The notes beneath the pieces are model-generated. The model was not told the DNA's origin. It did not search any database and worked only from the letters and a program-made list of their open reading frames with translations. A program made the position numbers and the translations under genes. A DNA stretch of 28,748 nucleotides, taken from a virus. The DNA lies in the IMG/VR virus record IMGVR_UViG_3300047481_000407, positions 1 to 28,748 of that record; one strand, given 5' to 3'. Shown here piece after piece: positions 1,825 through 15,710 of this stretch (within the stretch, counting starts at the first letter, position 1; every line of letters begins with the position of its first letter).

Positions 1825-3792
1825 TTACTTATATATTTTATCGAACCAGTCATTGCTTGAATTATCTCTATCATTGTAGCTTAACTCCTTGTTATAGAGC
1901 TCTCTAGTGTGGTACATCCCCACCATAAAAGCCATTACACGGTCAAAGTTACCCTTTCTGTTAAACTTGATTAACTCTTGCAATAAAGCTGGGTCATAAA
2001 TCTTTTGCAAGTTAAGGGTAATTTCCCCATCTTCAGTAGCTCCTCGTCCAGAAATTAGCCAGTCTCTAATGTACAATTCTCCTTGAGATTTTCTTTGCTC
2101 AGTCATATGCATCCCATACTGACGTTTTACGTTCTTACTTCTGAGATCTTTCTTATCTAACATTTCGAATTCCTCTTGAAGAAGGTGCAGCTTTCTAAAC
2201 CTTTTAGCATAGGGAATAACTTCACCTCGGTCATTTTCAAATCCAATCTTAGCATTGTAGTACTCTGCTAACATAAACAGATTTCTATTGTACTCATCCT
2301 GAGTCTGAGGTCTCCCAATGTAGGATGCTACGATAATATCGTCAGGTTTAGACAGATTGTTAGGGACTTTGATAACGTATGCTGCCCCTAACGAACTTGA
2401 GCTTTCAGCTTTTCCCTGTGCATACGGGTCATGGCAGATAATATACAGATTCTTTGGGGTTATCTCTTCAACATCTGTTTTAAATGGGGGTTCATATACC
2501 ACTACGGCCCCAGTTAAGTCATCATCTTTTCTGTGTGGGAACTTGGTAATTGGACGTAGATTATTGTTGGGGTTAAAGTCTGCCTTTCCTTTAGAGTTGT
2601 AATACATCTCCCCAACTACCCCTATTTTATCTAAACTTCCTGATATGACCCTGTTGTATTGCTCTTTTAGTGAGGCTACATCAAAGGTATTTGCAGTCAC
2701 TTGAAGTGTTGCTTCTTGAGGACTGAATGGATGTTCAGCTATATACTGGTCATAAGATTTAGGGTCATTCCCCTTCTTTTTCTTTTCTCTTTGTTCTTCT
2801 TCGTATTCAATAGCCTCATTAATCAAGCTGTTCCCATCCTTATCTATAAACCCATCTAGGTTTTTGTAGATAGGGACAAAGAAACCACAGATTGTCCCCA
2901 TAGCCCCAGCATCCCAATCGTTCTCAAACCCTAAGCAGTCGTAAGCTTCGGGGTGATAGAAGAGTTCTTCCAACCCTTCAAACCCAGGTCCTTCTTCTCC
3001 CCCAGTTCCAAAAGCTATCATGGTACCTAGTGTCTTAGACCCCTGTCTCATTGTAGGCATAGCTACCTCCCAAGCTTTTAACAACCCTGAGAATGAACCT
3101 GATTCTTCGAAGAATATCAATTCCCCTGCTTTACCACGTATCTTATCTGGGTCATCTTTCAAACTCACCCCGATTATTTGTGACTTAAACCCTAATGTAA
3201 CGTCTGCTCCGTTTACATTCTTCTTATACCCGGATTGCTTGTGCATCTCCCTATCAATCAGACGAGGCTGTGTCCAAGCTGTGTTATCGTCTATAAATGA
3301 CACGATATCCCAAGCTTTAGATAACATCCCGTCCCCAGTTAAGTACTGTTTATCTGATGCAAATACAAAGTTCTTACTGTTTCTTACGTGAAAGTAGTTC
3401 CTACACAGCATTGCTGCAGCCTTATACGAGAAACCTTTACGTCTAGCCTTGAGAACAACCATATGTTTGTTGTCTTTTCTAGCTTTATCTACAGCATTAA
3501 AGTACTCATAATCCCCGTCATAAAAGGCTGGGAAACTGCGGTCACGACGTGATATTACCTCTCCATCTGGCTGTTTTTCATCTATAATCCTATCAATTGG
3601 GCAGTAATTAAGGTAGAAATAGTGAAACCCTGAGATCTTAACCCCATTTAACTCAAAGCCATGCATACATCTATGTTGTTCTTTATCCCAATAGTCATAA
3701 TACTGCTTAGTCCCAGGGAGGGAGGCCGTGTAATACCCGTATTCCAGGTAGTGGTTAGCCGCTTCAGAAAATAGATGTGTATCCCTTAGCAT
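1825..3792 (-). CDS. terL: Terminase large subunit (TerL)
   Basis: This is the packaging motor: an ATPase that drives DNA into the prohead and a nuclease that cuts it. Of 655 residues, the N-terminal part carries the crAss-type signature (Tyr-rich stretch, then ISGFHYFYLNYCPI at 54-66). A variant Walker A motif KARRKGFSYK lies at 115-124 and Walker B ELIFFEE at 224-230. The RNase H-like nuclease part shows acidic residues at D455 (IICHDPYAQG), E519 (IGFENDRGE) and probably D617 (NFDRVMAF). All three acidic positions and the ATPase motifs are present, so it should be active. Its ATG overlaps the stop of the upstream gene by one base (TAATG), which suggests translational coupling with the small-terminase candidate. 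Length fits the family. Confidence 0.95.
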   Translation of the reverse strand: MLRDTHLFSEAANHYLEYGYYTASLPGTKQYYDYWDKEQHRCMHGFELNGVKISGFHYFYLNYCPIDRIIDEKQPDGEVISRRDRSFPAFYDGDYEYFNAVDKARKDNKHMVVLKARRKGFSYKAAAMLCRNYFHVRNSKNFVFASDKQYLTGDGMLSKAWDIVSFIDDNTAWTQPRLIDREMHKQSGYKKNVNGADVTLGFKSQIIGVSLKDDPDKIRGKAGELIFFEESGSFSGLLKAWEVAMPTMRQGSKTLGTMIAFGTGGEEGPGFEGLEELFYHPEAYDCLGFENDWDAGAMGTICGFFVPIYKNLDGFIDKDGNSLINEAIEYEEEQREKKKKGNDPKSYDQYIAEHPFSPQEATLQVTANTFDVASLKEQYNRVISGSLDKIGVVGEMYYNSKGKADFNPNNNLRPITKFPHRKDDDLTGAVVVYEPPFKTDVEEITPKNLYIICHDPYAQGKAESSSSLGAAYVIKVPNNLSKPDDIIVASYIGRPQTQDEYNRNLFMLAEYYNAKIGFENDRGEVIPYAKRFRKLHLLQEEFEMLDKKDLRSKNVKRQYGMHMTEQRKSQGELYIRDWLISGRGATEDGEITLNLQKIYDPALLQELIKFNRKGNFDRVMAFMVGMYHTRELYNKELSYNDRDNSSNDWFDKIYK

Positions 3793-12689: not shown

Positions 12690-12814
12690 TTTTTTAAATC
12701 TGGGGAAATTTTTTGAGAGTGGTGTCCTACGTATTCAAAGACCCCCGCTAAGTTTTGGTGGATAAGTATATCCCCCATAATAATTTATTCGTAAACTTCA
12801 TAAATTCAAACACA

Positions 12815-13108
12815 ATGAGTAAAAAACCTCAAGTTCAACAGCAGAGCAACAGGGTTGCTGCTGCTTCCGCATCACTTTGTTTCAAGGATAATAAGCCATC
12901 CGGCATTATCCTCTCAACACAGGAGAGAATCAAAGACAACGACGAAGTCGATGTCATTGACGGAGAAATTATGTTCGTCGGCTTCGACTCACTTGACGAA
13001 CAGTTTAAGAATGATGCTATGGTTCGTTATGTATCTTCCAAACATCCTAAGTTTGAGAAGATACTTGCCGCTGCCCGTGCAAAGGGCATCGTCACTAACG
13101 AAGCATAA
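12815..13108 (+). CDS. Hypothetical 97-residue protein in its own transcription unit
   Basis: The ATG at 12815 follows an AT-rich leader; a frame from a TTG at 12755 is longer but starts in the leader. The product begins MSKKPQVQQQSNRVAAASASL, a flexible Gln/Ser/Ala stretch. A compact part follows (KPSGIILSTQERIKDNDEVDVIDGEIMFVGFDSLDEQFKNDAMVRY) and then a helical C-terminus (HPKFEKILAAARAKGIVTNEA). No family recognised. The gene stands alone between two strong terminators, with tandem operator-like repeats upstream. Its GC-richer codon choice (GAC, GTC, ATC, CTC) suggests high or tightly controlled expression. A small early regulator or host-modifying protein is plausible but unproven. Confidence 0.65.
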   Translation: MSKKPQVQQQSNRVAAASASLCFKDNKPSGIILSTQERIKDNDEVDVIDGEIMFVGFDSLDEQFKNDAMVRYVSSKHPKFEKILAAARAKGIVTNEA

Positions 13109-13127: not shown

Positions 13128-13152
13128 GGGGGACATTCGTCCCCCTTTTTTT
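13128..13152 (+). terminator. Strong rho-independent terminator
   Basis: GGGGGAC (13128-13134), loop ATTC, GTCCCCC (13139-13145), then seven T. A perfect stem 19 bases after the stop of the monocistronic gene. Confidence 0.9.
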
Positions 13153-13220
13153 GTTTATTTTTTATGTTGATACTGGTTACTAACTAGGTACTAACCAACC
13201 ATTTACTAATAAATTATTAT

Positions 13221-13256
13221 GTGTGTTGGAGAGATTGATTGCCAATACTCTCACAC
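13221..13256 (+). other. Hairpin A
   Basis: GAGAGATTG (13229-13237) pairs with CAAT-A-CTCTC (13243-13252, one bulged A) around loop ATTGC, and GTGT (13221-13224) with ACAC (13253-13256) below it. About 13 base pairs in all, with no T tract after it, so it is not a terminator. Confidence 0.6.
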
Positions 13257-13261
13257 TCATT

Positions 13262-13315
13262 AAGTGTGGTATCATATCAATCATCTAATTGATTGTATAC
13301 TATGGTATCACACTT
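13262..13315 (+). other. Hairpin B, 21 base pairs
   Basis: AAGTGTGGTATCATA (13262-13276) pairs over all 15 positions with 13301-13315 (two G-T wobbles). After a small asymmetric internal loop, CAATCA (13278-13283) pairs with TGATTG (13290-13295) around a six-base loop. The wobble pairs and internal loop suggest selection at RNA level rather than a DNA inverted repeat. Confidence 0.65.
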
Positions 13316-13337
13316 TATCTTACGTTCCATGTAATCT

Positions 13338-13481
13338 ATGGATAGTGTGTCCTACATGATGAGAAACGGGGTGATAGCCGTAAGTGACCTGGTATCACAG
13401 CAGCGCTGTGTGCAATTTGTTCAGTTGCCTCAAGAAGGGGAAGAGTCTGTAGTAACCGTTGAACTATTCCTAACCCATTAG
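13338..13481 (+). CDS. Possible 47-residue protein
   Basis: An ATG at 13338 (in-frame stop just upstream at 13332) opens 47 codons ending in TAG. The product begins MDSVSYMMRNGVIAVSDLV and ends VVTVELFLTH. It has alternating hydrophobic residues that look protein-like and little low-complexity sequence. Residues 7 and 8 offer a second and third possible start. It lies inside the hairpin-rich region, and one hairpin (13396-13410) is within its codons. No family recognised; chance remains possible for a frame this short. Confidence 0.4.
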   Translation: MDSVSYMMRNGVIAVSDLVSQQRCVQFVQLPQEGEESVVTVELFLTH

Positions 13482-13605
13482 TAGAAAGAACTATGGGGAC
13501 AGCCATAACACCTGTAAGTTGGATAAATTAGGGTGTTTATTTACTAGTAAGACTAAACAATAATGTCTTACACAGCACCTAAGCATGTGTATAAACTGCT
13601 TTACT

Positions 13606-13688
13606 AATGCAACAAGAACAAGCAGGGAATCCTACGGGACGAAACCATTAGAGTACACCTACCTGCAACGGGTGCTACTTGTTGCATT
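13606..13688 (+). ncRNA. Structured 83-base element closed by an 11-bp stem
   Basis: AATGCAACAAG (13606-13616) is perfectly complementary to CTTGTTGCATT (13678-13688). Inside, GCAGG (13621-13625) can pair with CCTGC (13662-13666), and a short TCC/GGA hairpin lies between. The element ends 49 bases before the ATG of a small membrane-protein gene, the usual place of a leader regulator. It is not a tRNA, since no T-arm is present, and it matches no riboswitch class I know. Confidence 0.4.
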
Positions 13689-13737
13689 TATTAACTTGTA
13701 ATCAATAACTTAAATCAATATCAAACACTTAATTCAC

Positions 13738-13977
13738 ATGAAGTACACACTTAACTTCCTCAAAGTAATTACTCAGATTGCAGTAGTTGCTACCGTTACA
13801 TTCATTCTTCCTGCTCTATTGCATGGTATTATCACTCTCAACATGAGTCATTATCTAATGGACATCTTGAGTGGTGACTACCAAATGGGGATGGCTTTTG
13901 TATCTATCATCGTTACAATTCTATACATAGTAGCACTTAGTATGGAACACGATGAACGTAAAGTATCCAAGTTCTAA
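13738..13977 (+). CDS. Small two-segment membrane protein
   Basis: 79 residues with two hydrophobic segments, at about 8-33 (LKVITQIAVVATVTFILPALLHGIIT) and 50-68 (MGMAFVSIIVTILYIVALS). A short loop lies between them and the C-terminus is charged (MEHDERKVSKF). No family recognised. It precedes a lipoprotein-like gene by 12 bases, and the two are probably made together. Small membrane pairs expressed early in phages often block superinfection or alter the host envelope, but nothing in the sequence proves this. The leader shares 15 bases (13696-13710) with that of the gene at 14279. Confidence 0.65.
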   Translation: MKYTLNFLKVITQIAVVATVTFILPALLHGIITLNMSHYLMDILSGDYQMGMAFVSIIVTILYIVALSMEHDERKVSKF

Positions 13978-15584: not shown

Positions 15585-15672
15585 GACTAAATAGCTCAAC
15601 TGGTAGAGCGTAACGAGTTTTTATTAGAAGTATTTGTCTCGTTAGGTATGGGTTCGAATCCCATTTTAGTCT
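15585..15672 (+). tRNA. tRNA-like gene with expanded anticodon arm
   Basis: All arms but one are normal: acceptor GACTAAA (15585-15591) with TTTAGTC (15665-15671), D-stem GCTC/GAGC with loop AACTGGTA, T-stem ATGGG/CCCAT with loop TTCGAAT. The anticodon arm is TAACGAG (15611-15617) with CTCGTTA (15638-15644), a 7-bp stem around a 20-base loop, so no anticodon can be assigned by the usual rule. Total length 88 bases against about 73. If 13 bases were removed the loop could read TTTTTAT (Lys-type UUU), but that is a guess. CCA is not encoded. Confidence 0.6.
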
Positions 15673-15710
15673 CATAAAAACCCACCATTGTGTACTTACG
15701 AATAACCATT

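Follow-up and report, generated by a model that had tools for sequence, protein, structure and literature searches.

Introduction

Structured RNAs that serve as roadblocks are known from eukaryotic RNA viruses. Coremin, or xrRNA-C, of benyviruses and others follows a consensus in which hairpin 1 carries a YGAD tetraloop or a YGNNAD hexaloop and a second, required hairpin lies downstream (PMC10520033). The xrRNA-D of Tombusviridae and Luteoviridae, built of helices P1 and P2 plus a pseudoknot, has conserved loops and is found intergenically before coding messages (PMC6299227). In the phages T4 and T2, an H-type pseudoknot lies in the mRNA leader of a single gene, gene 32, upstream of the start codon, where it is bound by gp32 (PMC3014915). 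STAXI elements are short pseudoknots arranged in tandem, in two to three units, near genes typical of mobile DNA (PMC2864571), and GOLLD and ROOL are phage RNAs of many hundred nucleotides that stand beside tRNA islands and whose function is unexplained (PMC12286853).

Here we describe a phage locus with two predicted plus-strand elements that can be set beside these systems, an H-type pseudoknot of 26 nt (13576-13601) and an RNA of 217 nt (13322-13538). Both are new to Rfam 15, against which they were tested, and undescribed within the open-access literature.

The non-coding region and its relatives

The stretch analyzed (the window), 28,748 bases long, makes up an entire IMG/VR record and is a fragment of a crAss-like phage. 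Genes recognized in it include those for terminase, a DNA polymerase of family A, and a helicase like DnaB. The top named relatives of the DNA polymerase are gut crAss-like phages, with 26-29% identity. Genes are mostly on the minus strand up to 11,340 and on the plus strand beyond, and the minimum of the cumulative GC skew, at about 11-12 kb, coincides with this divergent junction.

The initial annotation had drawn attention to 585 bases at 13153-13737 as a non-coding region rich in hairpins. Indeed, the sole ORF of at least 50 aa in it is one of 56 aa on the minus strand, and every hairpin claimed was found: A (about 13221-13257), B (13262-13315), a 7-bp hairpin (13547-13571), and an 11-bp stem (13606-13688). 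Directly before the region lies, as had also been claimed, an intrinsic terminator on the plus strand (13128-13152; GGGGGACATTCGTCCCCC followed by T7), which is kept in L002, L004, L006, and L032; it belongs to the upstream gene at 12815-13108 and forms the left border of the region. Downstream, on the plus strand, follows a gene for a membrane-protein-like product of 79 aa (13738-13977), for which PHROG gave no match.

Folding energy was weak evidence of structure. The comparison with shuffled sequence that had been suggested gave a minimum free energy only weakly better than the shuffles (z of -2.02 on the plus strand, with 1 of 100 shuffles as low, and of -1.41 on the minus strand); we therefore set minimum free energy aside as a proof of structure and compared relatives, which was decisive. 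Using the DNA polymerase as bait, 67 loci were collected. The same gene neighborhood, judged by the flanking genes, was present in L002, L004 and L005 (identical here), L006, L024, and L030. Among relatives the non-coding region is a mosaic, whose pieces are common and whose order and content vary, and BLASTN of the whole 585-base region against 50,697 phage records gave no match.

Covariation across relatives was strong. For hairpin B, the 217-nt RNA, and the pseudoknot it exceeded both shuffled and slid controls, and in a fourth element, the hairpin at 13547-13571, changes in the stem are compensated, which bears out the suggestion of an RNA under structural selection. The comparison shows the region to be a plus-strand cassette of predicted, conserved structured RNAs between terminator and gene. 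The initial annotation was right in proposing new structured phage RNA, but instead of one RNA the region holds a series of conserved elements, four or more in number; it had missed the pseudoknot at 13576-13601 and the fact that 13322-13538 is one RNA. Its statement that no known RNA class is recognizable held: no Rfam 15 family matched the region, and searches of the window at gathering and permissive thresholds and of 25 loci at the gathering threshold returned, at gathering, only tRNA, tmRNA, and GOLLD, with neither GOLLD nor ROOL in the window. The letters GATGA..GAAAC near 13358, which presumably recall a hammerhead, and CUAAGCAUG, which we take to resemble a tmRNA 9-mer, were considered and dismissed as coincidence, since no Rfam match follows.

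The region had also been proposed as a possible origin of replication, with the hairpins acting as DNA. It is non-coding, rich in hairpins, and near replication genes, but the skew does not switch at this site, its minimum being at the divergent junction, and elsewhere the elements turn up one by one or differently combined. Both the pseudoknot and the 217-nt RNA occur in numerous phages, at genomic positions that are unrelated to each other, and mostly have the orientation of the neighboring genes or tRNAs. In L396 the 3' hairpin of the 217-nt RNA is closely followed by a long T run, a transcription signal. We consider an origin very improbable.

A 217-nt RNA often found behind tRNAs

The 217-nt RNA (M1) consists of a 5' domain (ACGUUC, a hairpin, and AUGAUGAGAAAYGG..CCRU), a variable middle, and a 3' domain (UAUUCCUAACC, a hairpin, and GGGACAGCCAYAACACC followed by a 17-nt loop and GGGUGUU). 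A pattern search with the 5' domain (13322-13388) returned 8 contig stretches, and the alignment of seven distinct sequences had double changes at 8 pairs; BLASTN of this domain against known phages found no match. An independent search with the 3' domain gave 22 stretches, some of them by chance. Loci with an extended 3' domain, found by that domain alone, hold the 5' domain at the right distance, with covariance model E values of 1e-9 to 1e-16. Across 12 full-length relatives, 97.4% of the cells of 36 pairs are paired and 15 pairs show double changes; none of 500 shuffles scored as high. Covariation thus establishes the predicted structure. Within the 3' loop, UAUUCC could form a pseudoknot with GGAUA, a candidate for which there is one double change only (L465).

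Phages that look unrelated have relatives of this RNA, in many cases immediately after a tRNA. Its start lies at most 2 nt from the tRNA end called by ARAGORN in L448, L465, and L400, and a tRNA-like 3' end immediately precedes it in L394, L396, L451, and L459. In L465, an array of 24 tRNAs holds both GOLLD and the 217-nt RNA. The latter had no Rfam 15 match in the window or in the loci of eight relatives, though GOLLD was found in L465, and a model search of 30 whole phage records added no new strong members. We also noticed odd tRNA-like sequences with long insertions before this RNA (L396 at about 2895-3054, L465:3655-3780, and L451:2569-2672), with the acceptor stem TAGTCAGG/CCTGACTA.

The RNA resembles GOLLD and ROOL in standing beside tRNAs in phages; it differs in size, at about 180-217 nt, and in sequence and structure. 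It would be an added class among these unexplained tRNA-adjacent phage RNAs, perhaps a stable trans-acting RNA that might be excised by tRNA-type processing.

Other hairpins of the cassette

Upstream of the 217-nt RNA, hairpin A (13221-13257, plus strand; GAGAG/CTCTC plus flanking pairs) is near-invariant, being identical letter by letter in L004, L006, and L434. Hairpin B (13262-13315, plus strand; 21 pairs including G-U wobbles) stands where elsewhere a tRNA or another hairpin precedes the 217-nt RNA. It covaries in seven phages, with 98.6% paired cells and double changes at 8 pairs; its covariation score is 0.376, and slid pairings do not exceed 0.09.

The 25-nt hairpin at 13547-13571 (plus strand) has a 7-bp stem, GTAAGAC/GTCTTAC, and the conserved loop UAAACAAUAAU. 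In other phages it is the second half of a two-hairpin element. The pattern was found in about 20 phage loci; in about 16 loci it keeps the loop UAAMCAAUAAU and varies the stem, whose flanking pairs covary (GTAA/TTAC, GCAA/TTGC, AATA/TATT, GTTA/TAAC, GCAT/ATGC, GTAT/ATAC). Behind the pseudoknot, an 83-base element (13606-13688, plus strand) is closed by 11 bp between AATGCAACAAG (13606-13616) and CTTGTTGCATT (13678-13688). It had no homologous stretch in the loci compared and is known from the window alone.

A pseudoknot of less than 30 nt dispersed among phages

The stretch at about 13571-13601 is far more widely common among the loci than the rest of the region. It contains the predicted pseudoknot, CAC-CU-AAGCA-U-GUG-UAUAAAC-UGCUU on the plus strand, in which S1 pairs CAC (13576-13578) with GTG (13587-13589), S2 pairs AAGCA (13581-13585) with TGCTT (13597-13601), L1 is CU (13579-13580), and L3 is UAUAAAC (13590-13596). 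Throughout the family, S1 has 3-5 bp and S2 5 bp, and both covary; L1 is fixed as CU and L3 as seven nucleotides ending in AAAC.

This grammar gave 353 matches and none in three shuffles, and 331 copies were counted in the 261 loci fetched; loop dinucleotides other than CU gave 4 matches, compared with 327. Among 243 copies found with the outer S1 pairs left free, pairs 2 and 3 of S1 follow Watson-Crick rules in 99.6% and 97.5%, respectively, and each of the four pair types is represented. Both outer pairs of S2 can form in 217 of the 243, a figure that is partly biased because part of the set was fetched with S2 fixed. We also examined a set of 89 copies (A1) in which only the closing C-G pair and the inner core of S2 had been selected to be complementary. 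Of its cells, 95.4% are paired; 158 carry double changes, where shuffles give 54. The covariation score is 0.486, and slid pairings do not exceed 0.13. Copies found by the grammar only vary the inner S2 pairs as well (GAACA/TGTTC, GGGTA/TACCC, GAGTA/TACTC, AGACA/TGTCT) and keep CU and AAAC. The predicted structure is thus established by covariation. It had no match in Rfam 15 and no description in the open-access literature.

How does it compare with described elements? Coremin (GUCCGAAGACGUUAAACUAC) and common variants of the phage pseudoknot share a 3-bp GUC/GAC hairpin followed by the 7-nt spacer GUUAAAC. The phage element, however, is found in DNA phages and has an 8-nt loop, CU-RRGCA-U, that falls outside the coremin consensus and forms a 5-bp pseudoknot, where coremin requires a second hairpin. 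The xrRNA-D, likewise a pseudoknot with conserved loops between genes, is larger and has another layout. The gene 32 pseudoknot of T4 and T2 is also an H-type pseudoknot in a phage mRNA, but it has no dispersed family and belongs to one gene, whereas the genes flanking the present element are unrelated. Finally, unlike the tandem STAXI elements, it is a single copy in 211 of 261 loci, and no Rfam match connects the two. A type III antitoxin RNA, likewise a pseudoknot, was also considered and set aside, as no tandem array was seen.

Scans of viral contigs with S1 left free, and with the outer S2 pairs left free, gave at least 120 stretches each; in the same part of the collection the latter had about eleven-fold more matches, from which well over a thousand copies would be expected in IMG/VR by extrapolation. 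The bacteria whose phages carry it include Firmicutes, Cyanobacteria, Proteobacteria, and Bacteroidetes, among others. In the far larger collection of bacterial genomes only 91 stretches were found, and 55 loci follow the full grammar, including a Methanobrevibacter assembly. BLAST lists, taken without context, added matches in Nostoc, Lactobacillus, Arthrobacter, Mycobacterium, Moorella, and Paracoccus phages, and 27 Vibrio records with a match inside an annotated gene, which are candidate matches only.

Position relative to genes and possible roles

In the annotated phages inspected, the pseudoknot is intercistronic and in sense orientation. It directly precedes genes for scaffold and major capsid proteins in the Staphylococcus phages phiETA and B236, in Anoxybacillus A403, and in Streptococcus Javan407, and lies between genes in Microcystis, Synechococcus, Methylophilales, Roseobacter, and Acaryochloris phages and in the gut crAss-like cr7_1. 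Distances from the upstream stop codon have a sharp edge at exactly 6 nt, which is also the most frequent value (55 of 189 copies, with 2 closer); those to the next start vary more widely. In 13 copies, mostly with a stop codon close in front, a tRNA begins 3-13 nt behind the pseudoknot; mostly tRNA-Asp, they may be one lineage. No tRNA was found within 20 nt upstream in the loci scanned. Synechococcus phage S-CRM01 has a tRNA, the pseudoknot close behind it, and then a gene. Crude gene calls place 21 copies apparently in 5' UTRs only, and some copies stand at operon ends, before convergent genes. In the window no ORF stop lies 6-10 nt upstream of the pseudoknot. Mixed A and U without a U run follow the pseudoknot and speak against an intrinsic terminator.

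The reading that we prefer, and to which we give an even chance, is that of a mechanical roadblock protecting mRNA ends, more probably 3' ends. The small size, the fixed loops, the independence from neighboring genes, and the spread over many phyla suggest a self-contained mechanical element rather than a switch specific for a ligand or a protein. Such a barrier, placed as near the stop codon as a terminating ribosome would permit, would keep 3'-5' exonucleases away from the 3' ends of the transcripts upstream. Where a tRNA follows, the pseudoknot would end 3-8 nt ahead of the RNase P cut, leaving a tail presumably too short for an exonuclease to load. It is this place behind stop codons, together with the layout stop-pseudoknot-tRNA, that makes us favor protection of the upstream 3' end. 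In this phage, the pseudoknot could perhaps separate the processed 217-nt RNA upstream from the downstream message and protect it. Against 3' protection, it does not seem to follow from first principles that a short pseudoknot blocks 3'-5' exonucleases, and the order in S-CRM01, the apparent 5' UTR copies, and the window, without a nearby stop, also stand against it.

The spacing of 6 nt resembles the spacers of ribosome-facing pseudoknots. This sharp minimum would suit a roadblock for ribosomes, which would keep post-termination ribosomes from scanning onward into the gene or tRNA that follows, and structures of the coremin type do stall scanning ribosomes (PMC10520033). We find this unlikely considering the copies without a nearby stop codon, that of the window included, and those at operon ends before convergent genes. 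A location 6-9 nt behind a codon of interest might also suggest stimulation of stop-codon read-through or frameshifting. Here stop usage and frame length decided: the stops are mostly UAA (134 of 189), the in-frame extension has a median of 7 codons, and in one frame UAA or UGA falls within the motif. We rejected such recoding as extremely improbable.

The invariance of CU and AAAC could instead mark a site bound by a protein of the phage or the host, an operator as in the autoregulation of T4 gene 32. Fixed loops are, however, also expected from the geometry of a pseudoknot, and one shared protein partner is unlikely for an element that has unrelated genes as neighbors and occurs across phages of many phyla and in the Methanobrevibacter assembly. 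An operator appears quite unlikely to us.

The main rival to 3' protection is the opposite polarity, in which the pseudoknot, as the DNA-phage counterpart of xrRNA and coremin, would stop 5'-3' exonucleases and stabilize the message downstream, at its 5' end, against RNase J. It arises from the likeness to coremin (GUC..GACGUUAAAC) and the places before capsid genes, which recall the intergenic xrRNAs that precede coding subgenomic RNAs of plant viruses, given that an xrRNA can stop RNase J1: a flaviviral one halts this enzyme in vitro, and the authors of that test wrote that xrRNAs never meet it in nature (PMC5760640). Moreover, phages of Escherichia, Salmonella, and Klebsiella are absent from the match tallies, with only partial matches in Citrobacter and Serratia. 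However, full-length RNase J was present in 35 of 55 pseudoknot-positive genomes and in 13 of 25 comparison genomes that fail the grammar, many of the genomes being metagenome assemblies in which misbinned phage contigs weaken the comparison. A dependence on RNase J was rejected for this lack of association. As 20 positive genomes are without the enzyme, RNase J is not the general target and a universal one fits better. In addition, gut crAss-like phages carry the pseudoknot, whereas the Bacteroidetes genomes checked have no full-length RNase J, and the element is tied closer to the upstream stop than to the downstream start. We regard 5' protection against RNase J as doubtful.

Returning to a barrier at transcript ends in general, we propose tentatively, and as a possibility short of an even chance, that one class of pseudoknot of less than 30 nt, in DNA viruses of many bacterial phyla and possibly of archaea, could be a general exonuclease-resistant element that defines and stabilizes transcript ends, a prokaryotic counterpart of the plant-virus and flavivirus xrRNAs, and that the 217-nt RNA could be a further class of tRNA-linked phage RNA. 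If the dispersed, covarying pseudoknot is such a barrier, the shaping of phage messages by built-in decay barriers would be directly testable in Staphylococcus phages, which are easy to handle and have the pseudoknot directly before capsid genes, and the element would supply a short, portable RNA-stabilizing part.

Further conserved elements near the cassette

Several observations concern sequences around the pseudoknot in relatives. In crAss-like relatives, a fixed stretch, AGAAAGGACGTGATAT..CGTCGTA, right before some copies forms a second hairpin fused to the element (L010:7443, L011:5427, L013:5192, L017:2903, L023:4863, L032:5630, L112, L152, L167, and L179). Behind the pseudoknot, several relatives have a hairpin UGCACCAYAACU-stem-UUCCCAAGG-stem, absent here, with varied stems complementary in 14 of 16 copies. 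The hairpin element TAATGCACCAYAACT-stem-TTCCCAAGG-stem-CAGTTGTAATA often follows as well (L006:7378, L009:7243, L013:5364, L017:3139, L030:7949, L102:1283, L402, L419, and others), and its stem covaries (CTCAC/GTGAG, CTATC/GATAG, CTTAG/CTAAG, CTTGA/TCAAG). The non-coding regions of L006:7304 and L013:5253 have in common an element CTCTTCCTTTAACCGAGT.TCTATCCAGTAAGCTGCTGGCGT.

Elsewhere in the window, ARAGORN reported at 15585-15673 a tRNA-like gene (tRNA-???) with an unreadable anticodon and a long insertion in the anticodon region. Upstream of the gene before the cassette, at 12700-12780, lies a conserved non-coding sequence, GAGTGNTGTCCTACGTATTCAAAGACCCCC, common to L024 (1505-2330). Finally, the leader of the downstream gene (13696-13737, plus strand) carries the recurring motif TTGTAATCAATAACT, seen at 13696 and 14249, about 30-40 nt ahead of start codons, and in relatives too, which may be a promoter or a translation leader of this phage group.
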